A stretch of DNA of 64,000 bases from a virus. The notes below the pieces were generated by a model. It had not been told where the DNA came from, did no database searches, and was given only the letters and a program-made list of their open reading frames with translations. A program made the position numbers and the translations under genes. The stretch is from positions 62,001 to 126,000 of the IMG/VR virus record IMGVR_UViG_3300026521_000527, one strand, 5' to 3'. Positions 5,136-55,749 of this stretch are shown here, piece after piece; within the stretch, counting starts at the first letter, position 1; every line of letters begins with the position of its first letter.

Positions 5136-6396
5136 TATATTTTCCTTCCTTTATATCTTTATCAATTTTTGAAATAATTTCAGTACTAACTACTTGGAAT
5201 AATTTTATTCCGTAAATTTTTCCAGCTGTTGTTATTGAATTACCTATAATTGGTGAAGCAAATTGCCAAGTAATTAAACCATAAATACCATAAAGTGAGT
5301 TCAAAGTAACTTTAATTCCCTGCTGCATTGAATTAAATTGAGCTTCTCTTAGTGCAATAAATATTGGTATTTTTTCATGCGCATTTATTTTTTTATTTAT
5401 TTTATGAACTTCAAATTCAATTGTAGTTAGTGAAAAAAGACGTCCCTCTCTGGATTCAGTATCCTCAATCTCATTCAGGATTTGATTAGCCTGCCTTTCA
5501 CTTAAATATAAACCATTCTCTGGGTTTAAAAAGAACTCTTTAGTTTCTTCTGATAGTTTATTATACGCTGATAAAATAGCACCGAGCATTAGACTTCTGT
5601 TTTTAATTATTTTCCTATCATCTAATCCTATTTTAATTAATTCAACATCAAAAGCTAAATTTTCATCATGAAGATCATAAAGCACGCCATAAGGGTTAAC
5701 TATTTTGCGAGAAAATATTTCCCTCATTTCTTTAAGATTTAATTTTTTAAAACTAACTTTAGTTGAATTAAAATTCAGCATAATATAAATATATTTATTG
5801 CGATATTTTTGATCAAAATCATGATTGAAAAAAACATAATCTATTGTCGTTTGATTATATCCTCTATTTTGCGGGCTAACCCAAGTTACCAATTCAAGAA
5901 TTGGATAAAGATAACTTCTAAGTAAAAAATATGAAGTATCATCTTTAGGTTCAAAAATATCTTCTAGAGTTCCTTGGAACTCTAGAAGTTTTCTCAGAAG
6001 TGCTACATAATAATTTGAAGCAAATTCCAACATATCTGCTTTATTCTGTACTGTTTTTCTAGTAAAAAAATCTTTTAATGAACCTATTATAGCATTTGAA
6101 AATCCGGAACATGCTTGGTCAATAATTTCCGGATTATCCTTTTTCTTAGTAAGAACTGTGGCTATTAAATTTAACGTGCGATCAATAATCGCTGGTTCAT
6201 ATATTCTTGCGAATAAAGTATCATACCCAATATTTTGATGCATTAGACTAATTGGATATAGTGCATTAGCATCATTACTACTAACAACCATATCCGGTTC
6301 CAGTCCATAAATTCCAGGCACTGGTTGCTGAACATAAGCACCCTGCACTTTTAGATGCATCGCGAAATTTTTAATTTCTTCAATGGTAAATGCCAT
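5101..6396 (-). CDS. Family B DNA polymerase, palm/fingers piece (motifs A and B)
   Basis: This 431-residue protein carries the first half of a family B polymerase catalytic core. Residues 18-30 (QGAYVQQPVPG) match the segment that leads into the palm. Motif A is NDANALYPIS at 41-50, with Asp42 as the expected metal ligand. Motif B is KVTLNSLYG near 362-370, fitting Kx3NSxYG. The chain ends about 60 residues later, before motif C, which is in a separate gene at 27074-28054. The exonuclease domain is in a third gene at 24122-25162. There are no intein-like sequences at the ends, so the pieces probably assemble non-covalently. Confidence 0.9.
   Translation of the reverse strand: MAFTIEEIKNFAMHLKVQGAYVQQPVPGIYGLEPDMVVSSNDANALYPISLMHQNIGYDTLFARIYEPAIIDRTLNLIATVLTKKKDNPEIIDQACSGFSNAIIGSLKDFFTRKTVQNKADMLEFASNYYVALLRKLLEFQGTLEDIFEPKDDTSYFLLRSYLYPILELVTWVSPQNRGYNQTTIDYVFFNHDFDQKYRNKYIYIMLNFNSTKVSFKKLNLKEMREIFSRKIVNPYGVLYDLHDENLAFDVELIKIGLDDRKIIKNRSLMLGAILSAYNKLSEETKEFFLNPENGLYLSERQANQILNEIEDTESREGRLFSLTTIEFEVHKINKKINAHEKIPIFIALREAQFNSMQQGIKVTLNSLYGIYGLITWQFASPIIGNSITTAGKIYGIKLFQVVSTEIISKIDKDIKEGKYNESTEYIRFRA
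5961..5988. repeat. Intragenic perfect inverted repeat (13-bp arms)
   Basis: The arms CTTCTAGAGTTCC and GGAACTCTAGAAG are separated by TT, inside the polymerase palm gene. It is one of many long perfect inverted repeats within genes in this window, far longer than expected by chance. Confidence 0.85.
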
Positions 6397-6416
6397 TTTT
6401 AAAAACCGTTTCTATT

Positions 6417-7262
6417 TTAAAGTTTTTTCATATTTAGATAATATTTTCTCAGATTACCAAGTACTGGGGCAATTGATATATCATTTATATCTGTCGGACA
6501 ATCAATTTTATTAATCATCTTATAAAAATTATTCCTGATAAGGACCGCTTGTTTGACAAGAGTTTTTAATTCAGTAAAGTTATACGCTATACCAACTGCT
6601 TTATAGAACTCTCTGGTCTTTCCTGTCATTCTAATAACATCAATTTTAAATTTATTATCTTTGAATGTAATTCTTACATTTTTAATTAACGATTCTGGTT
6701 TACTACCACCAACTATTTTTTCTTTATAGTTCAATGACACTCTTGGGTTTAATTTAATAATGTCTCCCATAATATCTTCACGATATTCTAGTGCATCTTT
6801 TAGAGCCTTTTTAGCTTCAATTCTATTTCCGTATTCGAATTTAAATAATCTTGAATGGTGTACTCCATCTTTATTTCTTAACATCACTGTCCAATTAGCT
6901 GGACTATTCTCGTCTTTAACATATCTTGTTAAATATATCCCTCTGTAATCATTTTCAGTAATATCAATTCCATGATACATTAAAGCAATCTGTGTTGTTC
7001 CTGGTTTTGTCCCTGATCTCTTTAAAAATTTATACCAAAGATAAGCGTATTCCAATGCTTCCTCTGATGTATCAAAATCACAAACTTTGATAGTTTCATT
7101 AAAAGATTTTGAGTTCTTTGTAACTCTAACCAAGATTGTTTTGAATTCTGAGTCGATATATAAACCTCTTATTTTCGAAAGATCAATGCATGTTAAATTC
7201 AGTTCTCTTTGACTCAATGTTTCGATAAAATTTTGAAGATTGCTTTTTGTATAAGATGTCAT
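6417..7262 (-). CDS. Unknown protein with possible AP2-like DNA-binding segment
   Basis: This 281-residue protein is not assigned. A central segment (about 103-165) begins YRGIYLTRY, continues with WTVMLR, then FKFEYG, and ends EAKKALKDALEYRE. This strand-strand-strand-helix order resembles AP2-like DNA-binding domains found in phage proteins and homing endonucleases. A similar strand and helix pattern follows at about 190-250, so there may be two copies. The match is by pattern only. It begins a new unit after the folE hairpin, with AAAAGGA at the start. Confidence 0.65.
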   Translation of the reverse strand: MTSYTKSNLQNFIETLSQRELNLTCIDLSKIRGLYIDSEFKTILVRVTKNSKSFNETIKVCDFDTSEEALEYAYLWYKFLKRSGTKPGTTQIALMYHGIDITENDYRGIYLTRYVKDENSPANWTVMLRNKDGVHHSRLFKFEYGNRIEAKKALKDALEYREDIMGDIIKLNPRVSLNYKEKIVGGSKPESLIKNVRITFKDNKFKIDVIRMTGKTREFYKAVGIAYNFTELKTLVKQAVLIRNNFYKMINKIDCPTDINDISIAPVLGNLRKYYLNMKKL

Positions 7263-7339
7263 TTTATTTCCTTTTGATAATATATTTTGATGTTTTGGTA
7301 TTCAGCGTATTAAAATTATTAAAATTAATGAGAAAATCT

Positions 7340-7350
7340 GGGCACAGGAA
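7340..7350 (-). promoter_or_regulatory. Conserved motif next to hairpin (copy 1 of 5)
   Basis: The plus strand reads GGGCACAGGAA, directly next to the folE hairpin. Related copies lie at 19456, 31557, 49955 and 57469, always between a hairpin and the next gene start. The role is unknown. Confidence 0.4.
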
Positions 7351-7385
7351 ATCGGAGTGGTTGGCTTAAGCCAACCACTCCGATT
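7350..7385 (-). terminator. 36-base perfect palindrome after folE
   Basis: A perfect inverted repeat with 18-bp arms (AATCGGAGTGGTTGGCTT and its complement) lies just beyond the folE stop. In RNA it would form a very stable hairpin. There is no clear U-tract after it, so it may be a terminator of the phage polymerase or an mRNA-end stabiliser rather than a classical intrinsic terminator. Confidence 0.7.
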
Positions 7386-7396
7386 ATTTAAATTAT

Positions 7397-8407
7397 TTAA
7401 AGGTCTTTTCTAAACTCTTCATCATTATATAGTCCGCCGTATCTCTCAGATGTAAAACAACCATCTTTTGATTTAGCCCCTCTTATGCTTTCACATGTGT
7501 GGACTATATTATTTAAACGAACATAAACATTTTCTGTTCCAGCTGCCTCAGAAACCTTTTTATAAATTTCTTCAGTAAGTTCTTCTTGCAACCAACCTCT
7601 TTGTCCAACCCAATCAACTATTCTTTGTAATTTACTAATTCCAAGAACGTTATCTTCTGGAACATAAGAAATTATTGCATAAGCATCTTCTCTAAATGTT
7701 GATGAAAAAGGAGCAGCATGATGACTACAAACTGCAGTTAAATCAACACGTTTTGTAATTCTATGTTTGATTTTATTATTATTTGGAAATGTTGCCATTC
7801 TTGGAGGTTTGCTCCATCTCCCACTCATTAACTCTCTATCGTCTGTTGTTGATGCACCACACCACATTTTAGCAATTCTTTGGGCAGTTCCAATATTACC
7901 TGTTTCCAAATCGCTCATTACATTTGGATCACTGAGGTCAATTTTCATAGCTCTGAATGATTCCTCAATAAGTTTACCAGTTTTATATCTCATAATAAAA
8001 TGGGCTTCATCTGTCCATTTATAATCTTGCTCAAATATATTTTCATTTATTTTAAAAATAGGAGCCTGCTTATAAGTCTGCAGAGCTTTTGCAAATCCAA
8101 CCACCGTGTTAAATTTGCGATGATATGCCTCAAGTATCTCAAAGAATTCGATAACTTTAGGGTTCGGACTATCTGTTTCATAAAGTTCAATTACTTGATC
8201 TATGATCGGGTTCCCAAACTCAGTGTAATAACCTCTAGGTAAATATAATGTATAGGAATTATTTTTTTTATCGAACTCAATATTTTCCCAAGGTTTATAA
8301 AAATTATTTAATCTAATTTTTACATTATCAGATGATTCTATATGATCTTGGGTACAGATTCTATTTTCCTGTTTTTCAGGAAAATAGATTATTTCAGTAA
8401 CTTCCAT
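7397..8407 (-). CDS. folE: GTP cyclohydrolase I (FolE), long form
   Basis: FolE converts GTP to dihydroneopterin triphosphate, the first step toward preQ0 and other 7-deazaguanines. The C-terminal half carries the family signature: IGTAQRIAKM near 172-181, the zinc-site CSHH at 227-230, GISKLQRIV near 256-264, QEEL near 274, and HTCESIRG near 303-310 with the last zinc cysteine at 305. The usual CEHH is CSHH here. At 336 residues it is over 100 longer than typical FolE because of an N-terminal region of unknown role. With queD, queE, queC, Gat-QueC and the DpdA-like gene in this window it forms a DNA-modification pathway. The strong AAAGGA site supports the start. Confidence 0.93.
   Translation of the reverse strand: MEVTEIIYFPEKQENRICTQDHIESSDNVKIRLNNFYKPWENIEFDKKNNSYTLYLPRGYYTEFGNPIIDQVIELYETDSPNPKVIEFFEILEAYHRKFNTVVGFAKALQTYKQAPIFKINENIFEQDYKWTDEAHFIMRYKTGKLIEESFRAMKIDLSDPNVMSDLETGNIGTAQRIAKMWCGASTTDDRELMSGRWSKPPRMATFPNNNKIKHRITKRVDLTAVCSHHAAPFSSTFREDAYAIISYVPEDNVLGISKLQRIVDWVGQRGWLQEELTEEIYKKVSEAAGTENVYVRLNNIVHTCESIRGAKSKDGCFTSERYGGLYNDEEFRKDL
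8361..8387. repeat. Intragenic inverted repeat (11-bp arms)
   Basis: CTATTTTCCTG and CAGGAAAATAG flank a TTTTT loop within the first 20 codons of folE, so the hairpin could affect folE translation. Confidence 0.75.
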
Positions 8408-8418
8408 TTAAGTTTCCT

Positions 8419-8853
8419 TTACTCTGCTTCTGTTGCTTCTGTTGCTTCTGTTGCTTCTGTTGCTTCTGTTGCTTCTGTTGCTTCTGTTGCTTCTGTTGCT
8501 TCTGTTGCTTCTGTCGCAGCCATTAAAATTTCAATCACACTTTCAAGAACCTGTTTGCCTTCTTCTTCAGTATACTCATCTGGACCTGCAAAATCAAGTG
8601 TGCTTAGATTCTGGTTGTCGTCAAAATTTAATATAATTTCACAAGGGATTTGTGCATCCATGTGTAGTTTAGAAACAACATTGAATACCATAACATCTTT
8701 ATTATCCCTAGTTTCTTTTTGGGCAGCAATTATATAAACACCAGTTTTTTCCATAGCCTCCATTATTTCAGGATTCTCGATAAAAGGTGCAGACCCATCC
8801 ATTTGATAAGAATCCATCTCTACTTTATTTTCAACATTTTCAACATTTTCCAT
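8419..8853 (-). CDS. Unknown acidic protein with C-terminal Ala-Thr-Glu repeat
   Basis: This 144-residue protein ends in about ten Ala-Thr-Glu repeats encoded by a 9-base tandem repeat. The body (about 20-105) is a compact alpha/beta segment with no recognised family. The tail is acidic and probably unstructured. The gene lies 11 bases before folE in the same operon and has AAAAGGA at its start. The repeat number could easily change by slippage. Confidence 0.85.
   Translation of the reverse strand: MENVENVENKVEMDSYQMDGSAPFIENPEIMEAMEKTGVYIIAAQKETRDNKDVMVFNVVSKLHMDAQIPCEIILNFDDNQNLSTLDFAGPDEYTEEEGKQVLESVIEILMAATEATEATEATEATEATEATEATEATEATEAE
8427..8516. repeat. 9-base tandem repeat, ten units
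   Basis: The unit CTTCTGTTG (plus strand) occurs nine times exactly and once as CTTCTGTCG. It is in frame and encodes Ala-Thr-Glu repeats at the C-terminus of the gene at 8419-8853. Confidence 0.97.
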
Positions 8854-19557: not shown

Positions 19558-20127
19558 CTAAATTTTATTATTATTTTCTGCTTTAAATTTCGCTTTCTGT
19601 GTTTCATCAGCCAATGTTTTTAATTGACCGGCCAATCCTATCGCATGCCATTTTTCAAGAGCTAAAGTAATTTTAGCATTACCTTTATATGATAAAAATA
19701 TTTTAATTTTATTATTATTACCCATTGCTGCGCCGACGGAAACCTGTTTAGTTTGACCTTGGCCTGCTGCAGTTCCTGCAAATTTTGAACTATCAGTAAA
19801 TACCATAAAATCACATTTTTGATAAACAGCAGCTTGTATTAGTGCCTCACTAAGCGCATATAAATCACGGATACTTATTTTTTGAGTTTCTTTTCTTGAT
19901 TGATCATAAGTCCTTCCAGATGCTTTTGATTGATCAGGAACTCCAGGTACAAACATTAAAAAAGCATTCGCTGTAGGAAATTCTTTTGCTTTATCAATAA
20001 AACCAGTTGCTTCAAATAATTGAGTTGCTGGAAAATTAACTCTACCAACGACTTCAATTGAAGAAGCTTGTGGTGCTTGTGGTGCTTGTGGTGCTTGTGG
20101 TGCTTGTGGTGCTTGTGGTGTATTCAT
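19558..20127 (-). CDS. Unknown protein with N-terminal Pro-Gln-Ala repeat
   Basis: This 189-residue protein begins with a flexible Pro-Gln-Ala repeat (about residues 4-21) encoded by a 9-base tandem repeat. A folded region follows with a Lys/Gln/Gly-rich centre (for example AAGQGQTKQVS) and a strand-rich C-terminus ending in Lys/Asn. A nucleic-acid-binding or virion role is possible, but no motif decides. The start has a clear AGGAG site. Confidence 0.75.
   Translation of the reverse strand: MNTPQAPQAPQAPQAPQAPQASSIEVVGRVNFPATQLFEATGFIDKAKEFPTANAFLMFVPGVPDQSKASGRTYDQSRKETQKISIRDLYALSEALIQAAVYQKCDFMVFTDSSKFAGTAAGQGQTKQVSVGAAMGNNNKIKIFLSYKGNAKITLALEKWHAIGLAGQLKTLADETQKAKFKAENNNKI
20066..20119. 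repeat. 9-base tandem repeat, six units
   Basis: Six perfect GCTTGTGGT units (plus strand) encode the N-terminal Pro-Gln-Ala repeats of the gene at 19558-20127. Confidence 0.95.
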
Positions 20128-20588: not shown

Positions 20589-23210
20589 TTATACTTTATT
20601 AAATTCTGGATCTACACCTTTTGCTTGTAGAAATCTATCTAAATCTTTCACATAACTTTTTGCTCCAGTATAAGAATAATAATGCATATTTGCTCGCATG
20701 TTTTTTTCCCGAGATGATGAAACATTACCGTCGTCACTCGATTGTGACGCATGAATTATATCAAGTGCTCCTTTTGCGCCCTGTTGCCAAGCCATATACA
20801 CATTTCTTAAATTCGCAGGTAATCCATGATTATTTAGATATTTAATAATGTACTTTTCGCGTTCAGCGCACATTCTATCCTGATTCTCCGGAGTCCATAT
20901 TTCAGGACTATTTGGATCCAATCCAATTTTTTTAGCGTACTCGTTTGCAGTACCATCTAAAAATTGATACGCTCCTCTAGCACCTGTTGTTGGATTTATC
21001 GCTTCGTATCCTTCAGGAACATTACCCGCAAGTCCAGTTGATTCAACTTTAGCAATTTCCGCACAATAAACTCCAGCTGATATTTTATCTAGAGTTTTTG
21101 ATGAACCATTACCTTCAATTCTAAAAGCTCCAGCAAATTGCTTATCCCAATATGCTACACGATTACCTCCTTTACCAGTAGTGTATCTTTTTTCAATACT
21201 TGCTCCTTTACATGGATTTGATTTGGTACAAGAACTTGCTGGACGATATGGAGTAACTCTAGAACTACTTGCCATAACTTCAGTTTGACTTTTAGCAATC
21301 CCAACATGATGCACTCGATTAATATCAGCAGTTGTAGATAAAAATATAATATCTCCAGCTTGAACTTCATCATAATCTATTGGGGACGCATATCGTCTAC
21401 ACCAATCTGCTTGTGCCTGCGAACCTTTTGGAAAAGCATCTTTTGACATTCTCCCACCATATTTTTTTAAACCAGTTGCTAAACACACAGAGGTCATTAC
21501 AAAACCACTACAATCATACCATCCAGATTCAGCACCACCCCAAAGATATCTAAATCCTTTTTTAATTAAGGCTTCCGCTGTTTTAGCAATATCATTTGAT
21601 GTTCCTTTTATATTCAATTGCCCATTATAAGGAGAACCAGCACCATATATAACACCATTTATAGAAACACTTCCAGTTGATGGATTAATAGTTTCTATTA
21701 TATTATTCTTTAATTTGGATATCTGTTTAGAAATATCTAGAAGTATATTGGTATCTTGAGGTTCAACATTCTCAGTCATTAAGAACTCAATCTTAGCTTT
21801 ACATTTAAATGTTTTTTGATTATCTTCATTATTAGTCTCGCTTTCAAAGAATGAAATAGTTTCGACTACAGTTGGTGTGAAAACCCACTCAATTCTATAA
21901 GCAGGCCCTTTTCTAGCATTTTCAATAACAGTATTATCTTCACTAATAAATTTATCTTTAAAAAGGGCTTTTTTTATATCCAAATGTCCCCAGGCAATAT
22001 TATCCACTTCATAAGTTTCATAATTAGGGTTCATTTCATAATACTTTCTAAAATAACTTAATTGTTTAATTAAATCATTCTCAGATAAAAAAGAATATAT
22101 TCTTTTTACTTTTGGGTTAGGAATTTGCTTAACTTGTAGATGATCCCCACATGAAATATACTTTTCAGTGATTTTATTAATTGATGTTGAATCAATTATG
22201 GTTGGTACATTATCCGATGTCTGGACTAATTGAATTAAAGGATCTTTTGAATTAGATTCAAATTTTAATTTATCAAAATATGGTCTATCCTCTATTTTAC
22301 TGATTTTAAAATATCTAGCTTCGTCCAAATATGTTTGATGTCTAGGTCTAATCAAAGGTGTAAGAAATTTATCTTCTTCCCATGACCGAGGAATATAAAA
22401 ATCAGTTACAATTAGCTCTGTTGAGTTTTTTGAATTTAATGGCAAATCATCTTGAATCCAATTAAAAGGCGTAAGATATGGAGGGTAATTTTTAAAAAAT
22501 TCTTCTAGAATTTTAAAATTATTATCTGATTTAAATACATAACCGCTTGTTGGAATAGAGGTTGATATTGTTTTTAAATCGGTTGAACTATCATTCATGT
22601 AAATAAGATGAGTTGAGTTCGAACTCAACTCATCTGAATTTTCTATATAATCACCATAACCTTCGGTTCCCATTTTAGGAGATACTTTTGAACCATAATT
22701 AGTGTATGTTTCTAAAAATATTTGCTCTATGTGTCCGAGCAAAAATATACGTGGATTTGATTTACCATATTTAAGACTGGTTTGACTAGTAAACCCAAAA
22801 TTATTTTCAAGAAGCATTCTTCCAAGAGTCCAAGATATAAGTCTTAAGTTCACAGAGTATAAATTATTTCCACCAATTCTTTTCGTTTCAATTTTTCCCA
22901 TCTCCTCAATTTTAAAAACATTACTACTTGATGAAAGATTCGTGGTATCTGTATTGTCTTTTTCATGAATATAACCAGATGTTATTGTAATTGATATTGA
23001 ACACCCACCGGATGTAATTATATTTAACTGATCTATAGTTAATAATTTTAATTCTAGATATAGTTCAGTTTTATGAGATTCATAAGACTTTAAAACTCTA
23101 AGTTCATTGATGTTGTAATGAGTTAAATCAAACTCTTTTATTTGGCCATTTTCTTTTGAATCTATAACTTCATGAATCTTAATTTTCAGATCATTAAAAT
23201 AGGCTTGCAT
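20589..23210 (-). CDS. Large virion lysin: NlpC/P60 plus lytic transglycosylase-like domain
   Basis: The N-terminal 500 or so residues of this 873-residue protein are unassigned and probably structural. An NlpC/P60 cysteine peptidase-like domain starts near 550: WYDCSGF at 564-570 gives Cys567, QAGDIIF follows, and VHHVGIA near 633-639 supplies the histidine. A third domain (about 715-870) resembles a lytic transglycosylase or lysozyme, with EIAKVES near 718-724 and GARGAYQF near 743-750. Two peptidoglycan-cutting activities on one long chain suggest a tail-associated protein that opens the cell wall during infection. No signal peptide is visible. Confidence 0.85.
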   Translation of the reverse strand: MQAYFNDLKIKIHEVIDSKENGQIKEFDLTHYNINELRVLKSYESHKTELYLELKLLTIDQLNIITSGGCSISITITSGYIHEKDNTDTTNLSSSSNVFKIEEMGKIETKRIGGNNLYSVNLRLISWTLGRMLLENNFGFTSQTSLKYGKSNPRIFLLGHIEQIFLETYTNYGSKVSPKMGTEGYGDYIENSDELSSNSTHLIYMNDSSTDLKTISTSIPTSGYVFKSDNNFKILEEFFKNYPPYLTPFNWIQDDLPLNSKNSTELIVTDFYIPRSWEEDKFLTPLIRPRHQTYLDEARYFKISKIEDRPYFDKLKFESNSKDPLIQLVQTSDNVPTIIDSTSINKITEKYISCGDHLQVKQIPNPKVKRIYSFLSENDLIKQLSYFRKYYEMNPNYETYEVDNIAWGHLDIKKALFKDKFISEDNTVIENARKGPAYRIEWVFTPTVVETISFFESETNNEDNQKTFKCKAKIEFLMTENVEPQDTNILLDISKQISKLKNNIIETINPSTGSVSINGVIYGAGSPYNGQLNIKGTSNDIAKTAEALIKKGFRYLWGGAESGWYDCSGFVMTSVCLATGLKKYGGRMSKDAFPKGSQAQADWCRRYASPIDYDEVQAGDIIFLSTTADINRVHHVGIAKSQTEVMASSSRVTPYRPASSCTKSNPCKGASIEKRYTTGKGGNRVAYWDKQFAGAFRIEGNGSSKTLDKISAGVYCAEIAKVESTGLAGNVPEGYEAINPTTGARGAYQFLDGTANEYAKKIGLDPNSPEIWTPENQDRMCAEREKYIIKYLNNHGLPANLRNVYMAWQQGAKGALDIIHASQSSDDGNVSSSREKNMRANMHYYSYTGAKSYVKDLDRFLQAKGVDPEFNKV
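22607..22634. repeat. Intragenic 28-base perfect palindrome
   Basis: GATGAGTTGAGTTC is followed directly by its exact complement with no loop, inside the lysin gene. Confidence 0.9.
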
Positions 23211-33870: not shown

Positions 33871-35248
33871 CTTGAAACTCTTGCTGTTGAGTGAGGATTT
33901 GAGCGGCCTCCTCAATTTTTAATACAGCTTTTGCAATTGCCTCCAAAAGAGGATGTTCAAATCCTTCTTGATTTGCAATGTACTGGATGTATTTCATCAC
34001 ACTATACCAATTTGGATTTAGCTCAAGAAGTAAATCTTCAGTTGGGATATCCGAAGTTATTCTTTTGCATGTTCTTGTAGTAGTTTGCAACCCACCATTT
34101 TTAAGTTCTTCCCAATTTATGGTGGTATTTTCAAATACTGTTGCCATATCCATTTCAACATCTGATTCAATGACATTACAATCATCAAAATGATTAAACT
34201 TAACCAGATTTTCTTCTGGATAAGTTTCTGTATCACTTGAATGCACCACATAGAAATATGGCCAAGTTATGTAAACGGCTGTCAAAGTTACATTGTCATT
34301 TGAAATGACATATGCTTTTTCTGGTTGTAGTTCGATATTTGAAGTTGAACTTAATAGTTCAACTTTATCGGACAATGTTTTAATAAGTATCGTTAGATTT
34401 AAATCGACTACAACTTTATGACCATGCTCATCAACAGCATTTTGAATATATTTTGATACAACCTCAGTAAAACCAGTACTAAAAAGAGTCTCAATAACTT
34501 CTCTGGTCACTTGATTATTTGGAATCGCTAAATAATTTGATAGATTATTATCATTAAGATTTTCATCTGTCGATGTTTCAACTATATGTTGAAACATCGA
34601 AGTTGTTATTTCACGAACTGGTGTTGGGACACCGATTGTATCTGCAGCTGGTGTATCTGCAGCTTGTGTTTGTACCTCAGCTTGTGTTTCTGCATCTTGT
34701 GTTTGTACCTCAGCTGGTGTATCTGCAGCTTGTGTTTGTACCTCAGCTGGTGTATCTGCAGCTTGTGTTTGTACCTCAGCTGGTGTATCTGCAGCTTGTG
34801 TTTGTACCTCAGCTGGTGCTTCTTCAACAGCTTGAACCCTCTGCTGAGGCAAGTGATGTCTAATAATATTATCTAACGAGTTAATAATATTATCAAAAGA
34901 AGTGTCACCAGTAATTTGAGCTGCAGCAATATCTTGTGGTGATACATCAGCAACCAAGCTCTCTTCGAATTCACGAATTCTCGCAGCTATTGTCCCAGGA
35001 GCAAGCAATTCAAAAACTTGAATTGTACTCAATGCTTGTATAGGTATCGCTACTACCGGAGCCAATTCAGGGATTGTCATTTCCCCATCTATATATTGAA
35101 TTTTCTGTGAAAATTCAATCATCTGGTCTGTAAAACGTGTACAGACCCCATCAAAGTTTACAAAAGTTTGAGTGCCATTCGGCATTCTAAATGAACCTTC
35201 TATAGAAACCTCTGAATTTATGTCCAACGTTAATTGTTGCTGTTGCAT
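33851..35248 (-). CDS. Unknown protein with an 11-residue tandem repeat
   Basis: This 465-residue protein has a folded N-terminal domain (1-140), then four to five imperfect TPAEVQTQAAD repeats (about 146-205), and a C-terminal domain of about 250 residues. The repeat is acidic/Gln-rich and probably a flexible linker. No family is recognised. It has its own strong promoter-like element and leader hairpin upstream, which suggests an abundant product, possibly structural. The start has AAAGGAG. Confidence 0.85.
   Translation of the reverse strand: MQQQQLTLDINSEVSIEGSFRMPNGTQTFVNFDGVCTRFTDQMIEFSQKIQYIDGEMTIPELAPVVAIPIQALSTIQVFELLAPGTIAARIREFEESLVADVSPQDIAAAQITGDTSFDNIINSLDNIIRHHLPQQRVQAVEEAPAEVQTQAADTPAEVQTQAADTPAEVQTQAADTPAEVQTQDAETQAEVQTQAADTPAADTIGVPTPVREITTSMFQHIVETSTDENLNDNNLSNYLAIPNNQVTREVIETLFSTGFTEVVSKYIQNAVDEHGHKVVVDLNLTILIKTLSDKVELLSSTSNIELQPEKAYVISNDNVTLTAVYITWPYFYVVHSSDTETYPEENLVKFNHFDDCNVIESDVEMDMATVFENTTINWEELKNGGLQTTTRTCKRITSDIPTEDLLLELNPNWYSVMKYIQYIANQEGFEHPLLEAIAKAVLKIEEAAQILTQQQEFQDESITG
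34571..34601. repeat. Intragenic inverted repeat (13-bp arms)
   Basis: TCGATGTTTCAAC and GTTGAAACATCGA are separated by TATAT, inside the repeat-containing gene. Confidence 0.85.
34637..34827. repeat. 33-base coding minisatellite
   Basis: Several near-identical 33-base units encode the TPAEVQTQAAD repeats of the 465-residue protein. The units carry scattered substitutions (for example QDAETQ). The edges are approximate. Confidence 0.9.
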
Positions 35249-42381: not shown

Positions 42382-42613
42382 CCAAAGTCTCCGAATTTGG
42401 TAATGACTTTTTCAGAATATACTGATAGAATTCATCAATTTCTGATTGAAGAAAATTAACCCTCGCTCTTTTTATAATAGTAGTTTTATTCCAATGAAGT
42501 TTAATTATATTCTCTGGATAAAGCTTAGATATTTTAGTGGGTATTTTAGATTGATCAACATATTCAATATCTACTTGATAAATTGAATCATTTATAAATT
42601 TCGAGTAGATCAT
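42374..42613 (-). CDS. Unknown 79-residue protein
   Basis: This small basic protein (MIYSKFINDS at the start) has no recognised family. I prefer ATG at 42611-42613, with GGAG ten bases upstream, over the ATG at 42637, which lacks a ribosome site. It overlaps the end of the beta' C-terminal gene and the start of the next gene, so it belongs to the polymerase operon. Confidence 0.65.
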   Translation of the reverse strand: MIYSKFINDSIYQVDIEYVDQSKIPTKISKLYPENIIKLHWNKTTIIKRARVNFLQSEIDEFYQYILKKSLPNSETLDD

Positions 42614-44561
42614 GATACATGTGCTCCACTGATACATCAGTTGATTTTGTATAAATTTTACTAATAGCTCTATTACTAAAATTATAAAAAATACTTAATT
42701 TTGGATCTAGCATTTCTATAATATTTTTTAAAGCGATTTGTCTAGTCGGTTCCTTATCACTATATCTATAAAGAACATCATCTTCATCATAATATAAAAG
42801 ACTTATAATAAGTTCTAGATAAACACTTAAAATATCATTTTGCTCTATAACAACTGATAATTTATCATATAAAACAGAAGGGTCTATTAAAGCAGCTCCA
42901 TCTCTATTTTTATCAATTAAAGATGTAATTGAGTTTAATGTTTTAACTGAATCATCATTAAAAGGTTGATTAATTACATTAAATATTAGAGTTATTTTGG
43001 ACTCTTCTTTAGAAATATCTATTTCAATATCATCATCTGTATAAATATTTTTTAAATAATTTAATATATATTCTAATTGATCTTCAAGAGTTCCAATTGA
43101 CTCATTTTCTTTTTCCAAAATAATTTCTTTCTCTGAAAATTTAGCTTCTCTTAAAATACTTAGAAGTTTTTTATCCTCAGTTGCAATAAAAGCTCCACCA
43201 AAATGGTGAGTCCTAAGAACGGATTGTATAATACCCTCAGATAATCCTGATCCAATAATTGCCCCTAAGTTTACACTATCCGGTATCTTTGAACCAAAAC
43301 ATTTTTTACAGATTTTATATCCACTATGTTTACATGTAATTGGACTCCTTATTAAGATATCTAGACCAATCAGAGATTCATCATTAATATCTATTTTTTC
43401 TTCCTGTCCAGTAGAGTCATTAAACCACCATCTATGATTTAAAAGCTCAAGGATTGTTTTATTCTTAATATTTATTTTAAAATACTTATCAGTTCCGCAA
43501 TCTTCAAGATCTTTATCCAGTTTTAAAATACCCGTGGTGAAGAAGAATTTTCTTTGTAGTTCGCCTCCTTTTGGAATTGCTTCCTGTCTTTGAGCCAGCG
43601 CCAATCTAGCGCTATCTCCTGTCATAAAATACTCTTCTTCCGTTAAACCATCAAGTAAAGAATTTTCAATATTTGCTTTAAACGCTTTTCCATAGATATC
43701 CGTAGGAATACCAGTATTCGATGCAGCCTTCAGTAATTGAACCGATTTTAATCTTGCCCCACTATTGAATACAAGATTCAATATATTATTGGGATCTTCT
43801 TCCACTGTATTTTTAACCTTTTCAAAAAGTATTAAATTTTGATGAAACGCTAAAAATGGTTCTTCTTTAAATAAACTACTTCGTATATCATCTATTTCTT
43901 TATTACCAACTGCAAAATCTTTCAAATCGAAAGAAGGATTGCAGTGTGTTATAACTGTACTGCATTCTAAAAGAAATTTATCAAACTCATGTATATTCAA
44001 CCAGAAGTCAAACTCAATGCCTCTTGAATTTAAATCTTGAACTATAGCCCAAAATCTCTCAGTTAACTTTAAAAGATTTTTTTTATTTAGAACGCCATCT
44101 TTTTCAATTTCGTAGAATGGCTCACCGAGCAATTCCACAGAATTTTCCAATTCACCGAATAAAGAAATATGGATTAACCATTCAATATAAGAAAGAGTTC
44201 TATTGAACTCTTTGATGTGAAATTGTCTACCAGGTTCTGATTCAACCAAATTAATATCAGCAACTAGTTCATCTAATGTATTTAATTCAACTATTTCTCT
44301 ATCTGGGAATTGAGCTAGATTTTCTTTTGCTCGCAAAGTTAACATAAAAGCACTATAAATTGATTCATGTTCATAGTCAATTAATAATTTATCCATGTGC
44401 TCAAATTCAATAAGATTTTTCACAAAGGCGTACTTAAAATCAGCTCGTGCTTGTTTTGAATGCATAGCGGCTGCAATAACATTATCACCATCATGATCAC
44501 TATTATCAAATTGTGACATTAAATTTGATTTCTCAATTACTTGATTGCTTCCTATAATCAT
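42588..44561 (-). CDS. RNA polymerase beta' subunit, C-terminal piece (catalytic)
   Basis: This 657-residue protein begins just before the catalytic loop: NSDHDGD at 20-26, matching NADFDGD and keeping all three metal-binding aspartates (22, 24, 26) with Phe to His. Later, ICKKCFGSK and NLGAIIGSGLSEGIIQSVLR then THHFGGA match the conserved zinc and bridge-helix to trigger-loop region of beta'. The N-terminal piece is at 45456-46787. The break between the PTLHR region and the Asp loop is the type of split seen in phiKZ-like phages. Confidence 0.93.
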   Translation of the reverse strand: MIIGSNQVIEKSNLMSQFDNSDHDGDNVIAAAMHSKQARADFKYAFVKNLIEFEHMDKLLIDYEHESIYSAFMLTLRAKENLAQFPDREIVELNTLDELVADINLVESEPGRQFHIKEFNRTLSYIEWLIHISLFGELENSVELLGEPFYEIEKDGVLNKKNLLKLTERFWAIVQDLNSRGIEFDFWLNIHEFDKFLLECSTVITHCNPSFDLKDFAVGNKEIDDIRSSLFKEEPFLAFHQNLILFEKVKNTVEEDPNNILNLVFNSGARLKSVQLLKAASNTGIPTDIYGKAFKANIENSLLDGLTEEEYFMTGDSARLALAQRQEAIPKGGELQRKFFFTTGILKLDKDLEDCGTDKYFKINIKNKTILELLNHRWWFNDSTGQEEKIDINDESLIGLDILIRSPITCKHSGYKICKKCFGSKIPDSVNLGAIIGSGLSEGIIQSVLRTHHFGGAFIATEDKKLLSILREAKFSEKEIILEKENESIGTLEDQLEYILNYLKNIYTDDDIEIDISKEESKITLIFNVINQPFNDDSVKTLNSITSLIDKNRDGAALIDPSVLYDKLSVVIEQNDILSVYLELIISLLYYDEDDVLYRYSDKEPTRQIALKNIIEMLDPKLSIFYNFSNRAISKIYTKSTDVSVEHMYHDLLEIYK

Positions 44562-44605
44562 ACATTTCCTTTTATTTTTTTAATAAATTATAATGATCTA
44601 CAATT

Positions 44606-44640
44606 AAGTATTTAATGAGCAAAAAGCTCATTAAATACTT
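44606..44640 (-). terminator. Hairpin at the end of the 185-residue gene
   Basis: AAGTATTTAATGAGC, loop AAAAA and the exact complement (15-bp arms) overlap the last codons and stop of the gene at 44612. This may partly uncouple it from the beta' C-terminal gene. Confidence 0.65.
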
Positions 44641-45169
44641 CAATATTATATTTCTTTTGAATATCAAGAACCACATTTGGAATAACTGTCGTAACATTAT
44701 TTATCTTTTTATTGGATTCAATATATATATTAATATGCTCCATCAATGTTGATAAATTATAAAGACTATTGAATATTGGATTCCTATTATTTAAAAATGC
44801 AGCAAATCCTACAAAAGCTTGCAAGCCAGCATAATTAAAATCAGCCGGCTTTAATTCAAAATCAGGAAAATATTCAAAGAAAGGTAATTTTATATCTCCT
44901 ACAAAATCTTCAATATCTGCATTTGAAACACCGATATAAAAAGGTATTAAAAACAATCTATATTTTTTTCTCTTTAATTCAGTCTGCATTTTAAATTCTT
45001 CAATTAGTCTATCAACATTCTGATAAGTTTCTTTATCTATATATACAAAAGCTAAATCTGATATTGTGACCACTTTAGAATCTATATCTGATTCAACTTC
45101 GAGTGCTTTTGAAACATTTTCAGTAATATCTAAAAAATCATTATAAGTCATATTTCTCCTTAAATCCAC
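44612..45169 (-). CDS. Unknown 185-residue protein
   Basis: No family is recognised. It is helical with a Lys/Arg-rich middle and lies between the two beta' pieces with good ribosome sites on both sides. An RNA polymerase accessory or promoter-recognition role is possible from position only; no DNA-binding motif is seen. Confidence 0.75.
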   Translation of the reverse strand: MDLRRNMTYNDFLDITENVSKALEVESDIDSKVVTISDLAFVYIDKETYQNVDRLIEEFKMQTELKRKKYRLFLIPFYIGVSNADIEDFVGDIKLPFFEYFPDFELKPADFNYAGLQAFVGFAAFLNNRNPIFNSLYNLSTLMEHINIYIESNKKINNVTTVIPNVVLDIQKKYNIEVFNELFAH

Positions 45170-45171
45170 AG

Positions 45172-45453
45172 TTATAGAACTATTTTTAAAATGCGCCTAT
45201 TAAAATCATTATAAGCATAATCTAATTTTGGGTTAATTTCATATAGTAAATCAAAAAGATGTTTTGTGGCAATAACATTATTATAAATTACTTTCCCATC
45301 TGTACCACTAATTAAAGGAACAGATCTATTTAGATTAATAACTCGTTTGTCACCGATCTTTAAAAAAGACCCTGTGGATGTATTCTCAAATTCAGTTGGG
45401 TATTTTTCACTAGGTAAATGAAATCCACCTCCTCCATAAAAAACTATATGCAT
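45172..45453 (-). CDS. Unknown 93-residue protein
   Basis: A small beta-rich protein with GGGGFH near residue 7 and a basic C-terminus. It lies directly downstream of the beta' N-terminal gene with a 2-base gap and has GGAGGA at its start. No family is recognised. Confidence 0.75.
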   Translation of the reverse strand: MHIVFYGGGGFHLPSEKYPTEFENTSTGSFLKIGDKRVINLNRSVPLISGTDGKVIYNNVIATKHLFDLLYEINPKLDYAYNDFNRRILKIVL

Positions 45454-45455
45454 TT

Positions 45456-46787
45456 CTATTCCTCCAAATCATTTAAAAAATCATCAATTATTTCTTCATC
45501 ATTTACTTCTGGATTCAGTTCTATATTGCCATCATCCTCCTCATAATTTAATTTATCGTCAATTAATTTTAAAATATCATTATCATCAAAAACATTGGCT
45601 AAAACATATCCTCCTATATTATATCGCCATAATGTTGGTTGCCTCTCAACTAAGAGTTTAAATTCACTGATGTGTTTTTCTAAAAACTCTTGGAAATCTT
45701 CATCACGAATATTTATTTGGAAATCTTTATCGAATGATTTATAAATATATTGAATAAAATCAACTATTGAGATATTATTATCATTTATCGGATTATCTTG
45801 ATATTTAGTATATAAATAATGCAATAATTCCGGAAGAAATAATTTTTTTACTGACGAAACATGAAGCCCGATTTGATATGGCCTGAGAGCTGGATTAGGC
45901 ACTAAAACCGATCTTTGTGAAAACTCTACTGTTTTTCCAGTCAAGGCTTCTCGAATATAACTCTCTTTTTTTTGAAAATTAAATTCAAGTATTACTTCAT
46001 AAATTTCATCAACAGTCTGTTGGTATTTATAAACGGTATACCCGAAAAAATCTGGGTTTGCTTTAAATAATTGATCGGACATATTTATATTTTTAGCCTT
46101 ATTTTTAAGAATTTGGCTATAACTTTTGGTAATTGGATGGGGTAAAATTTTGGTAGGAGAGATTTTTATAATTTGACGACTACTTGGTGGAACCACCAAA
46201 ACATAATCTAAAAATATATAATCCAAGAATTTTGGATTTACAACTAAAGTTTCAAATGAAGCCTGATAGCTTGGATGGGTTCTTAGGAACTCAAAGAGTG
46301 ATTTTAAACTAACTATATCATAAACTGGTTGCTCAATTCTTCTTTCATTTGCTTTCATTCTAGATTCTTTTACCAATCTATGTTTTTCAAGACTAAAGAA
46401 ATAAGGAGCCTCTTTATTATTCTGGTAATCTTTTTTATTTAGTAGACTTTTTATAGCGACTTGTCCAAAAAACTGTTGCAAAACATTTTTGAAATTTGGG
46501 TTAACTACATAAATTCCATCTGGAAATTCTATTTTTGCAAATGTTGTTGTCCTATTATCTGTGGTACCGCAAAGAACATGACACTCTTCACAATACAATC
46601 CAGCGTTTTTCTTTCCAAATAGTTTATTGCATTGGCACCTAAATTTCTTAATTGGGCCAAATATTTGCTCAGAATATAAACCATCCGGATGAAAAACCTC
46701 TTGTTTCACACTGGTATATATTTTTGGACTAGTTATGTCAACTAACTGATCTGAATTTTCATAAATTTTAAAATTTAAATCTAACAT
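45456..46787 (-). CDS. RNA polymerase beta' subunit, N-terminal piece
   Basis: This 443-residue protein carries the beta' N-terminal region: DGLYSEQIFGPIKKF at 35-49, a zinc site C51, C53, C66, C69, and GKTVEFSQRSVLVPNPALRP near 282-301 matching the GRSVI region. The end reads VERQPTLWRYNIG, matching NRxPTLHR, and the gene stops before the catalytic Asp loop, which starts the gene at 42588-44561. The tail is acidic. It is the first polymerase piece in the transcript direction and follows a small zinc-binding gene. Confidence 0.93.
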   Translation of the reverse strand: MLDLNFKIYENSDQLVDITSPKIYTSVKQEVFHPDGLYSEQIFGPIKKFRCQCNKLFGKKNAGLYCEECHVLCGTTDNRTTTFAKIEFPDGIYVVNPNFKNVLQQFFGQVAIKSLLNKKDYQNNKEAPYFFSLEKHRLVKESRMKANERRIEQPVYDIVSLKSLFEFLRTHPSYQASFETLVVNPKFLDYIFLDYVLVVPPSSRQIIKISPTKILPHPITKSYSQILKNKAKNINMSDQLFKANPDFFGYTVYKYQQTVDEIYEVILEFNFQKKESYIREALTGKTVEFSQRSVLVPNPALRPYQIGLHVSSVKKLFLPELLHYLYTKYQDNPINDNNISIVDFIQYIYKSFDKDFQINIRDEDFQEFLEKHISEFKLLVERQPTLWRYNIGGYVLANVFDDNDILKLIDDKLNYEEDDGNIELNPEVNDEEIIDDFLNDLEE

Positions 46788-47173
46788 TAGATTCCTTTCT
46801 CAATAGCATATCTAAGGCAAACATTTATATGCTTACAGCTTCTAACAGTGCATGTTGGGTTAGTCTCCTTCGGAGGTTCTAATACAAAATCAGGTTGTGT
46901 CAAAAGGGCACCGTGTTGATCGAAGCAATATGCTAATCTGTACCTAAAGTCTAAACAACTACAATAAACCTTAATTTTACTACTTGGTGTAATTTTTGGC
47001 GTATTTGATTCGATCTTTACGACATACATGCTTGGTTGTATATCTGTAGTCGATTTTTTACTAATTAAACTGAATTGTTTTATATAAGGGCGATTTATAA
47101 CTTTTATAACTTTTATAGTATTATCTTGTGATCTAAGTATACTACTTACTGTAATTGATGATTGGGTTGCCAT
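46787..47173 (-). CDS. Small SWIM-like zinc-binding protein
   Basis: This 128-residue protein has a Cys/His pattern: VYCSCLDFRYRLAYC near 73-87, then CTVRSCKHINVC near 109-120. A CxC followed by Cys-x-His resembles SWIM-type zinc fingers, which bind nucleic acid or protein. I place the start at ATG 47171-47173, with AAAGGA upstream. The longer frame starts in an AT-rich leader. It overlaps the beta' N-terminal gene by one base, so it may be a transcription-related factor or simply co-transcribed. Confidence 0.75.
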   Translation of the reverse strand: MATQSSITVSSILRSQDNTIKVIKVINRPYIKQFSLISKKSTTDIQPSMYVVKIESNTPKITPSSKIKVYCSCLDFRYRLAYCFDQHGALLTQPDFVLEPPKETNPTCTVRSCKHINVCLRYAIEKGI

Positions 47174-47218
47174 TTTTGTCCTTTGAAAAAAATAAAATAA
47201 AATAAAAAAATTGGACAA

Positions 47219-47406
47219 TAGGAACCCCGTCCCTCTCAGGCCAGTGAACTATCCAAGTACTACCGATTTCAGTTTATCCTGAACCATTTCCATATTTCTT
47301 ATACTTCTTTTGATTCAGGGACCTACTCACGATAGGACCCGATACCACACCACCATCCAGATGACGAGGATCCGTCCACGATTAGTACCCTCCGATATCT
47401 AACCGC
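47219..47406 (-). ncRNA. GC-rich structured intergenic region, probable RNA
   Basis: About 188 bases are near 47% G+C, against roughly 30% elsewhere, and have no supported ORF. On the minus strand there are local hairpins: GGGTCCTA with TAGGTCCC (one mismatch), TTCAG with CTGAA, and short pairs near GGCC. It lies directly downstream of promoter copy B and upstream of the SWIM-like and beta' genes. It is probably a structured RNA or leader. It does not match a tRNA, and I see no RNase P, tmRNA or group I intron core. Confidence 0.55.
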
Positions 47407-47418
47407 TTCTAATAATAG

Positions 47419-47448
47419 TATTTATATACTTCGAGAAGTTATTCTAAA
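47419..47448 (-). promoter_or_regulatory. Putative phage promoter, copy B
   Basis: On the minus strand TTTAGAATAA (47439-47448) is followed after 9 bases by GTATATAAATA (47419-47429). It overlaps the end of the clamp-loader gene and reads into the GC-rich structured region. Confidence 0.65.
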
Positions 47449-48455
47449 CTATAAATTCCACCCCCTTTCGCTTCAAATATATTTTCAAGTATCTGAGCAA
47501 ACATTGTTAAAAAATGCAAAGTCTTAAATCTTTTTAACTCCAAATCTTGATAAAATTCTTGAATTGTTTTTTGATGTAATAGATTCAAATCCGAATCAAT
47601 CAATCCTTTAAATATATAATCAAAATTTAAATGCAGATCTGATTTAAAAACTTTTAAAATGTACTCATAATAAGTGAAAAAATGCTGATCATTTTTTGCA
47701 TCCTTAATAATATCAAGTTCTAATCCGACACCCAATGTCTCAAAATATTTTATCAGGTACACAGCATAATTTATTACGTTATCCTCAGTATCAGATACAC
47801 CAATAAAACTGTTAATTATACTTGGATCAAATATTCCAGATACTGATGCAAGTTCCAAATTATTTATAATATCTCGAAGACCTTTAGTTTTAAAAGAACT
47901 TACGAATTTTTTAAGATCTTCTAGATGGTATTTTATTTTTTCAGAATCTAGAATAAATTTTACTCTTTCGAATATCTTATTTTCATCAAGATCTGTAAAA
48001 TGTATTTTGGTATTAAATCTAGTCAGGAGGGCCGAATCCATTTTTTCAGGATTATTCGTCGTTGCTAAAAAAGCAGTCGTCGCTTGATATTTTTCTAATA
48101 ACCCATCTTTCAAGACAACTTGAGCCTGAGCACTTAGTCTATCAATTTCTTCGATTTTAACTATTTTCTGTTTACTACTTGCTGCACGCTGCTGCAACCA
48201 TCTAGCTAATTCATCAACGGAATCAATTTTTCGATCCAAGATAAAGATATCTACTCTATTTTTTACAATGCGATTAATTAGAACTTCATTAATGGTTGTC
48301 TTTCCAAGTCCAGCAGCACCATAACTTAAAATATTACCATTAATAAATTCATTATTATAAAAAGTTCTAATAACTTTTTCTATATTTTCATTTGGAAAAA
48401 TAACTTCATCAATTGATCTGGGGCGATATTTTTCAAACCACGCTTTAAACATCAT
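47439..48455 (-). CDS. Clamp-loader AAA+ ATPase (gp44/RFC small-like)
   Basis: This ATPase opens a sliding clamp and loads it on DNA. KAWFEKYRPRSIDEV at 4-18 is the RFC-box start. Walker A is GAAGLGKTT at 46-54, Walker B-like KIVKIEEIDRL follows, then the ATTNN sensor and LLTRF, fitting the SRC-like arginine motif. The C-terminal helices fit the collar domain. At 338 residues it matches T4 gp44 and archaeal small RFC subunits. It overlaps the preceding gene by 4 bases. A possible clamp gene lies upstream at 50001-50873. Confidence 0.92.
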   Translation of the reverse strand: MMFKAWFEKYRPRSIDEVIFPNENIEKVIRTFYNNEFINGNILSYGAAGLGKTTINEVLINRIVKNRVDIFILDRKIDSVDELARWLQQRAASSKQKIVKIEEIDRLSAQAQVVLKDGLLEKYQATTAFLATTNNPEKMDSALLTRFNTKIHFTDLDENKIFERVKFILDSEKIKYHLEDLKKFVSSFKTKGLRDIINNLELASVSGIFDPSIINSFIGVSDTEDNVINYAVYLIKYFETLGVGLELDIIKDAKNDQHFFTYYEYILKVFKSDLHLNFDYIFKGLIDSDLNLLHQKTIQEFYQDLELKRFKTLHFLTMFAQILENIFEAKGGGIYSLE

Positions 48456-55392: not shown

Positions 55393-55434
55393 GGGGATGT
55401 CTACATGAAACTAAGTTCATGCAAATCCCCGGAT
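55393..55434 (-). terminator. Imperfect hairpin with T-rich tail
   Basis: On the minus strand GGGGAT...CATGAA pairs with TTCATG...ATCCCC with internal mismatches, followed by a run of eight T's. It lies after the 60-residue gene and probably terminates its transcript. The remainder of the 55309-55488 gap holds a short TG/TA-type repeat (55441-55462) and no ORF. Confidence 0.65.
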
Positions 55435-55488
55435 ATTAATGTAATGTATGTGTGTATGTATGTGTCGAAATTAGAATTCTAGTCTAGA

Positions 55489-55671
55489 TTAGAATCCTGA
55501 TTTCGCTCTCCCTTGAATGCTTTGGCCGCTTTGGCGTGTAATCGTTACACCACCAGCTGATGGTGCTGAAGCTTGAGCTCCACTACCAGTTGGTGCACCA
55601 GATGTTGCTGCTTGTGCTCCTGTAGCTGCTGTTGCTGCCGCGATCATATCTTGCATATTTACACTTGCCAT
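55489..55671 (-). CDS. 60-residue Ala/Ser/Gly-rich protein
   Basis: This small protein starts MASVNMQDMIAAATAATGAQ and is low in aromatic and charged residues, so it is probably flexible. Its coding DNA is clearly more GC-rich than its neighbours, near 50% by eye. I place the start at ATG 55669-55671, with AAAGGA upstream. The longer frame to 55728 lies in the hairpin. It is a single-gene unit with its own promoter-like element, leader hairpin and terminator, which suggests high expression, for example as an abundant virion or DNA-associated protein. No family is recognised. Confidence 0.75.
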   Translation of the reverse strand: MASVNMQDMIAAATAATGAQAATSGAPTGSGAQASAPSAGGVTITRQSGQSIQGRAKSGF

Positions 55672-55690
55672 GTAATATCCTTTAAAAAAA

Positions 55691-55749
55691 ATTAGACGGA
55701 AGAGTTGATTTCTTAGCAAAAAAATCAACAGATAACTCTTCCGTCTAAT
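55691..55749 (-). promoter_or_regulatory. Leader hairpin before the 60-residue gene
   Basis: A 16-bp outer stem (ATTAGACGGAAGAGTT, 55691-55706, against 55734-55749) encloses a short inner TTGATTT hairpin. It lies between promoter copy C and the gene, so it would form the 5' end of the mRNA. Confidence 0.65.

Follow-up and report, generated by a model that had tools for sequence, protein, structure and literature searches.

The window analyzed here, a stretch of 64,000 nucleotides, corresponds to bases 62001-126000 of a 136,864-base IMG/VR virus record (IMGVR_UViG_3300026521_000527). Its GC content is 29.3%, and almost every long ORF lies on the minus strand. Genes detected in the window include those for split RNA polymerase subunits beta and beta', a clamp loader and a queC-like protein (beta and queC were identified by eye). 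Split beta and beta' genes also occur in phiKZ and AR9, which are jumbo phages with multisubunit RNA polymerases. Among isolates, Rhizobium phages RHph and Vibrio phage Va2 came closest, yet the N-terminal part of beta' was only 23-25% identical to their counterparts. Two small ORFs separate the halves of the beta' gene, which is split immediately ahead of its catalytic motif, DHDGD (42588-46787, minus strand). Short tandem peptide repeats (TEA, APQ) were observed in two phage proteins encoded at 8419-8853 and 19558-20127 on the same strand.

Between the clamp loader gene and the gene for a SWIM-like zinc-finger protein lies a GC-rich stretch, 47219-47406. A first-pass annotation made from the sequence alone had described it as a structured region directly behind a minus-strand promoter, leading into zinc-finger and beta' genes, and had proposed two identities for it, an RNA encoded by the phage or a leader that regulates the RNA polymerase operon. 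Both downstream genes were indeed found in these positions (Table 1). The GC content of the stretch is 47.3%, and the coordinates given for the GC-rich part proved nearly exact, the likely RNA being slightly longer (~47413-47206). Only four islands with at least 43% GC over 188 nt occur in the window; two of the others (20850-21045 and 34560-35091) are inside ORFs, and the last (55409-55731) holds a small Ala-rich ORF. The best isolate-phage relative of the zinc-finger protein sits among virion genes of Listeria phage LIS04.

Table 1. Features of the locus (window coordinates)
Feature	Position	Strand	Basis and details
Clamp loader ATPase, upstream neighbor of the RNA	47439..48455	-	phrog_168, E 5.2e-36
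Phage promoter TTTAGAATAACTTCTCGAAGTATATAAATA (-35-like TTTAGAATAA, -10 TATAAATA)	47419..47448	-	Recurring phage motif
Structured RNA, ~205 nt (candidate)	~47206..47413	-	Fold z -3.18/-3.80 and covariation with L011; both ends predicted (5' end ~47413 from the spacing behind TATAAATA, 3' end within the U-tract)
5' hairpin with GGAG loop	47378..47406; loop 47393-47390	-	MFE fold; loop identical in L011; 4 of 6 consensus pairs doubly changed (helices 1, 2)
Long irregular rod	47213..47377	-	MFE fold; five consensus helices (3-7), in which 18 of 36 consensus pairs are doubly changed
AGUAG in the main internal loop	47323..47327	-	Identical in L011, alignment columns 84-88
UGGCCUGAG in the rod's descending strand	47235..47243	-	Longest word identical in both homologues, columns 168-176
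U-rich tract directly behind the rod, terminator-like	47186..47210	-	Terminator scan, sequence
SWIM-like zinc-finger protein, 128 aa	46787..47173	-	Likely start ATG at 47173; Shine-Dalgarno AAAGGA 47184-47179
RNA polymerase beta' N-terminal part	45456..46787	-	Pfam RNA_pol_Rpb1_2, E 1.2e-8

The promoter and its family

The promoter-like element noticed upstream of the stretch belongs to a recurring family, as the pattern TTTAGAATAA-N12-TATAAATA was found at six distinct sites in the phage record when relaxed and at five when strict, all on the minus strand and with none in the control. The record of a related phage, L011 (G001), contains 14 distinct sites on one strand only, again with a control of 0 (overlapping rows for one site were counted once in these counts). 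A homologous RNA in L011, discussed below, is preceded by the same kind of promoter. Two promoters of this class in the L011 record (L112 and L133) lead straight into tRNA genes, which suggests that the class also serves stable RNAs.

T4 late promoters share with the window promoter an identical 8-base -10 element, TATAAATA; to our knowledge they have no -35 element, whereas the copies found here have a second element, TTTAGAATAA or a close variant, 12-13 bases upstream. The same 8-base sequence is named as a T4 late promoter in PMC3014915. The late motifs described for phiKZ (TATG at the start site) and AR9 (AACA-N6) are both unlike the window motif (PMC7598289).

Several leaders behind other copies of the promoter were also observed. 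A second copy in the window (55785-55470, minus strand) is followed by a long 5' hairpin with T8 and then by an Ala-rich ORF of ~60 aa, MASVNMQDMIAAATAATG..., which ends ahead of a strong terminator hairpin and likely encodes a highly expressed small protein. In the L011 record, a promoter of the same family precedes a GC-rich structured leader (0.45 GC, no Rfam match) of a gene starting MKTVTTATHPGIFHPDELFA (L119, 1500-1310, minus strand), and five promoters (L115, L117, L127, L129 and L131), all ahead of different genes, are followed by one and the same two-hairpin leader, GTAGGAAACAACAG...GGCGCTTAAGCGCC. Three intergenic hairpin regions of the window (19465, 31566 and 57480, minus strand) carry CCTYCTGTRCTTA, one copy having 1 mismatch to the pattern; when up to 2 mismatches were allowed, 5 matches were found versus 2.2 expected, which is only suggestive.

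Fold, covariation and comparison with known RNAs

The annotation had called the region structured, and folding supported this on the transcribed minus strand. A 218-nt segment had a fold z of -3.18, with 1 of 200 dinucleotide shuffles equally stable, and its 192-nt core had a z of -3.80, with none of 300 shuffles as stable. The plus strand was not better folded than its shuffles (z 0.02; core +0.82). The MFE of the core, -64.9, was below those of all 333 consecutive 192-nt windows of the minus strand. In the predicted structure, the basal stem of the rod consists of GGAC/GUCC and CCUCGUC/GACGGGG and closes beside the U-tract, and the internal loop comprises 10 by 11 unpaired consensus columns with stems on either side. 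Because the island is GC-rich and partly palindromic while the genome around it is AT-rich, the stretch might instead function as DNA, for example as an origin of replication or a site for packaging. However, its fold is strand-specific (core z -3.80 vs +0.82), 13 of the 62 pairs in the window MFE fold are G-U, which fits RNA and would not form in DNA, and a phage promoter lies directly before it. We regard a DNA element as very unlikely.

Comparison with relatives provided further evidence. A beta' scan of viral contigs showed three close phages among the best 80 of 112 relatives, namely L011 (62% identity), L013 (50%) and L012 (48%). L011 has a GC-rich structured stretch (z -10.0) in the same place, ahead of the same SWIM-like zinc-finger gene. 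In a MAFFT alignment, the window and L011 RNAs are gap-free over 188 columns with 40% identity, and their RNAalifold consensus contains 42 pairs, all of which are kept in both RNAs. The consensus energy was -32.95, compared with -9.95 +/- 3.40 for 500 column shuffles, none of which was as low. When one sequence was shifted by 1 to 6 bases, the consensus energy was only -8 to -16; when partners were slid by 1-3 columns, pairing fell from 100% to 34-46%; and when the 3' letters were dealt out anew, the observed pair counts were attained in 0 of 500 trials.

The compensatory changes at the same columns, with both sides changed in 22 of the 42 pairs and 0 of 500 shuffles reaching this, come from two sequences, and the consensus structure was derived from the same two. 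Comparison of the independent MFE folds of the two RNAs escapes this circularity: 32 pairs were identical and 61 of 62 agreed to within one column, whereas 1000 shuffled partners shared on average 0.24 identical pairs and never more than 12. The covariation with a related phage that the annotation had named as a check is thus present, and on this comparative evidence the window and L011 RNAs are judged to be a conserved structured RNA. Its shape was kept despite 60% sequence change, which implies that the RNA must matter to the phage.

Consistent with the earlier remark that the region has no supported ORF, stops were found in all three sense frames of both homologues. A short leader peptide was nevertheless considered, with a GUG start behind GGAGG and an end at the conserved UAG. 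In the window, this 18-codon frame has two adjacent Trp codons, and the UAG falls in the same column in L011. However, L011 has no ATG, GTG or TTG at a useful place in that frame, and the differences by phase (53, 70 and 55%) show no codon-like pattern and are explained by compensatory pairing. The peptide was therefore rejected as extremely improbable.

The search against RNA family models proposed in the annotation was run with Rfam 15. No family matched at gathering score in the window, L011 or L012, and relaxed searches gave only matches below gathering. ARAGORN found no tRNA or tmRNA genes at the window, L011 and L012 loci, so this identity was rejected. A CsrB/RsmZ-type sponge was also rejected, since there was no GGA excess (8 in the window, 6 in L011 and 7 in L012, versus 5.1, 5.9 and 5.1 expected; P 0.10, 0.57 and 0.22).

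The RNA resembles 6S RNA in having ~200 nt and a rod with a central internal loop. It differs from 6S RNA (RF00013) by its extra 5' hairpin and by the absence of an Rfam match, the 6S covariance model not appearing in the Rfam lists even at relaxed thresholds. Similarly, the put leader RNAs of HK022 are structured RNAs located right behind a phage promoter; these are shorter, two-stem RNAs that suppress termination, whereas the window RNA, compared by description only, itself ends in a terminator-like element. Conceivably, the window RNA is a 6S-like or put-like RNA that binds RNA polymerase in trans and contributes to a changeover of transcription between the enzymes of host and phage. The rod with its 10 by 11 loop and the adjoining phage beta' gene would suit such a role, but the lack of a 6S match and the looser neighborhood with beta' in L011 and L012 argue against it, and we consider it quite unlikely. 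In both of these phages, the zinc-finger and beta' genes are separated by other ORFs. In L011, two related ORFs (5755-7733) are inserted there; both contain repeats of a zinc-finger-like module, have a C-terminal part in common and resemble mobile-element or homing-type genes.

T4 RNA C and RNA D are phage small RNAs of unknown role according to PMC3014915; they lie in the T4 tRNA region and were compared with the window RNA by description only. No paper on the present RNA was found in the literature searches, and the terms 'noncoding RNA', 'small RNA', 'sRNA' and 'structured RNA' are absent from the text of a 2026 jumbo-phage review (PMC13282480). As no Rfam family fits and no matching literature was found, we refer to it, as far as these searches reach, as a phage structured RNA or leader of an undescribed family.

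The 3' end, distribution among relatives and possible role

In the window, the U-tract behind the rod precedes the zinc-finger gene's Shine-Dalgarno sequence and ATG start. The terminator scan of the window gave one site, with 6 pairs, versus 0.6 +/- 0.9 expected by chance, and this terminator is weak, with a 4-bp base and a UAUU bulge. The L012 RNA has a 13-pair closing stem followed by U7. In L011, AGGGGGUAGGCGUCGC can pair in two ways, within the rod base or as part of a hairpin of 19 bp (-38.7); the 3' arm of this hairpin can in turn form a second one (-11.7) before U5. A terminator-like RNA end thus appears in all three phages, given the window U-tract, the L012 stem with U7 and the L011 hairpins before a U-tract, even though the window scan was not above chance. 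The order of stem, U-tract and Shine-Dalgarno sequence resembles that of intrinsic terminators and attenuators, except that the window stem forms the foot of a conserved rod of 165 nt.

The alternative pairings of AGGGGGUAGGCGUCGC in L011 raise the possibility of a regulated attenuator, riboswitch-like or controlled by a protein, in which the lower stem of the rod and a competing hairpin would decide between termination and read-through into the zinc-finger and beta' genes. However, the 19-bp hairpin wins outright in the L011 equilibrium fold, no such alternative pairing is seen in the window, neither a ligand nor a controlling protein is known, and no Rfam riboswitch matched. We consider an attenuator of this kind rather unlikely.

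The most likely reading, to which we give about an even chance, is that this is a phage-encoded structured RNA with its own promoter, which mostly ends at the U-tract as a stable ~205-nt RNA and whose read-through feeds the zinc-finger and beta' genes. Transcription would proceed on the minus strand toward lower coordinates, starting from the phage promoter, and the RNA would fold into the 5' hairpin and the 165-nt irregular rod. The basal stem of the rod, abutting the U-tract, should act as an intrinsic terminator, where most transcripts would stop and accumulate as the stable RNA. A read-through minority would serve as mRNA of the zinc-finger gene and then of RNA polymerase beta', and termination at the U-tract would thereby throttle the dose of the genes behind. 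Points against this explanation are that the window terminator is weak, that homologues are few and that most relatives lack the RNA.

The distribution was assessed in ten phages with the zinc-finger gene (window, L011, L012, L097, L096, L098, L099, L100, L101 and L102). A long GC-rich structured stretch precedes this gene in three of them (window, L011 and L012). Six have no RNA there, the gap to the upstream ORF being at most 97 nt, with one overlapping, and the L099 sequence, which ends 130 nt upstream of the gene, is uninformative in this respect. The zinc-finger gene can therefore be expressed without the RNA, as these six relatives have none before the same gene. A covariance model built from the two homologues (R1, window and L011) matched in two of eight phage records, namely those of the window and L011, and had no match at 23 loci behind other promoters. 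Homology of the L012 RNA to the window RNA was not supported (R1 score 1.6 bits). As R1 found nothing significant there, the corresponding place in L012 holds either a version that has diverged too far or another RNA altogether.

Relatives were sought by alignment scans with beta', the zinc-finger protein, the beta' N part and the clamp loader. The single-protein clamp-loader scan and a scan of genome contigs yielded no relatives. In viral contigs, the promoter pattern gave 0 stretches, the zinc-finger motif matched only in the L011 and L012 records, and AGTAG-N70-90-TGGCCTGAGRGGG gave 5 stretches, of which R1 confirmed only the one in the L011 record. By blastn against 50,697 phage records, the window RNA had only short chance-like matches, the L011 RNA none, and the L012 RNA 28-29-nt matches.

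Of the two possibilities raised by the annotation, a phage-encoded RNA is the one favored by these data, given the conserved pairing in L011 and the lack of a coding explanation. That it heads an RNA polymerase operon is no more than a possibility, given that the zinc-finger protein has its best isolate-phage relative among LIS04 virion genes, that other ORFs stand between its gene and beta' in L011 and L012, and that six relatives have the same zinc-finger and beta' genes but no such RNA.

In the L012 record (G002), promoters form a separate family, TTTAGAACT-N-GATATATAAATA, with 8 sites and a control of 0. Most of these promoters lead straight into different GC-rich folded stretches (8 units, z -4.8 to -10.3; L154 and L155 run into ORFs, and L157 and L159 are near-copies). 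The window RNA might be nothing but the 5' untranslated part of the zinc-finger mRNA, with no separate RNA accumulating; hairpins at the 5' terminus shield phage mRNAs against decay. A hairpin right behind the promoter is common in the clade: besides the L012 units, the records of the window and L011 together have 20 sites, and at 11 of these the first 70 nt behind the promoter had z <= -2. On the other hand, folding at the remaining 9 sites was not clearly above chance, a 30-nt hairpin would be enough, as at other promoters of this genome, and protection alone would hardly call for an architecture of 192 nt that persists although 60% of the sequence has changed. The genome's other promoters have much shorter leaders, and a simple 5' stabilizer might therefore do the same job. 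We consider a purely protective leader unlikely.

Annotation of phage genomes covers almost only proteins and tRNAs. We provide a covariance model and exact coordinates for an RNA beside a phage-encoded RNA polymerase gene, and the data point to a wider habit of the clade, in which folded RNAs are placed directly behind phage promoters. A more speculative extension, which we consider distinctly unlikely, is that this uncultured jumbo phage clade carries genome-wide 'RNA cassettes', with phage promoters each firing into a different folded RNA closed by a stem and a U-tract (~5 in the L012 record). The window/L011 RNA would then be a conserved trans-acting member, for example one that acts on RNA polymerase and times the switch to the phage multisubunit polymerase.

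The promoter units were delimited by a simple T-run rule, which set the ends too early for some (L120, L125 and L132). Neither Rfam nor ARAGORN matched the L012 units examined. Folded units closed by a stem and a T-run in the L012 record are L152/L148 (53545), L156/L146 (174908), and L157, L158 and L159 (215711-216596). One of the L012 units forms a cloverleaf-like ring of three hairpins, and two have UUCG loops.
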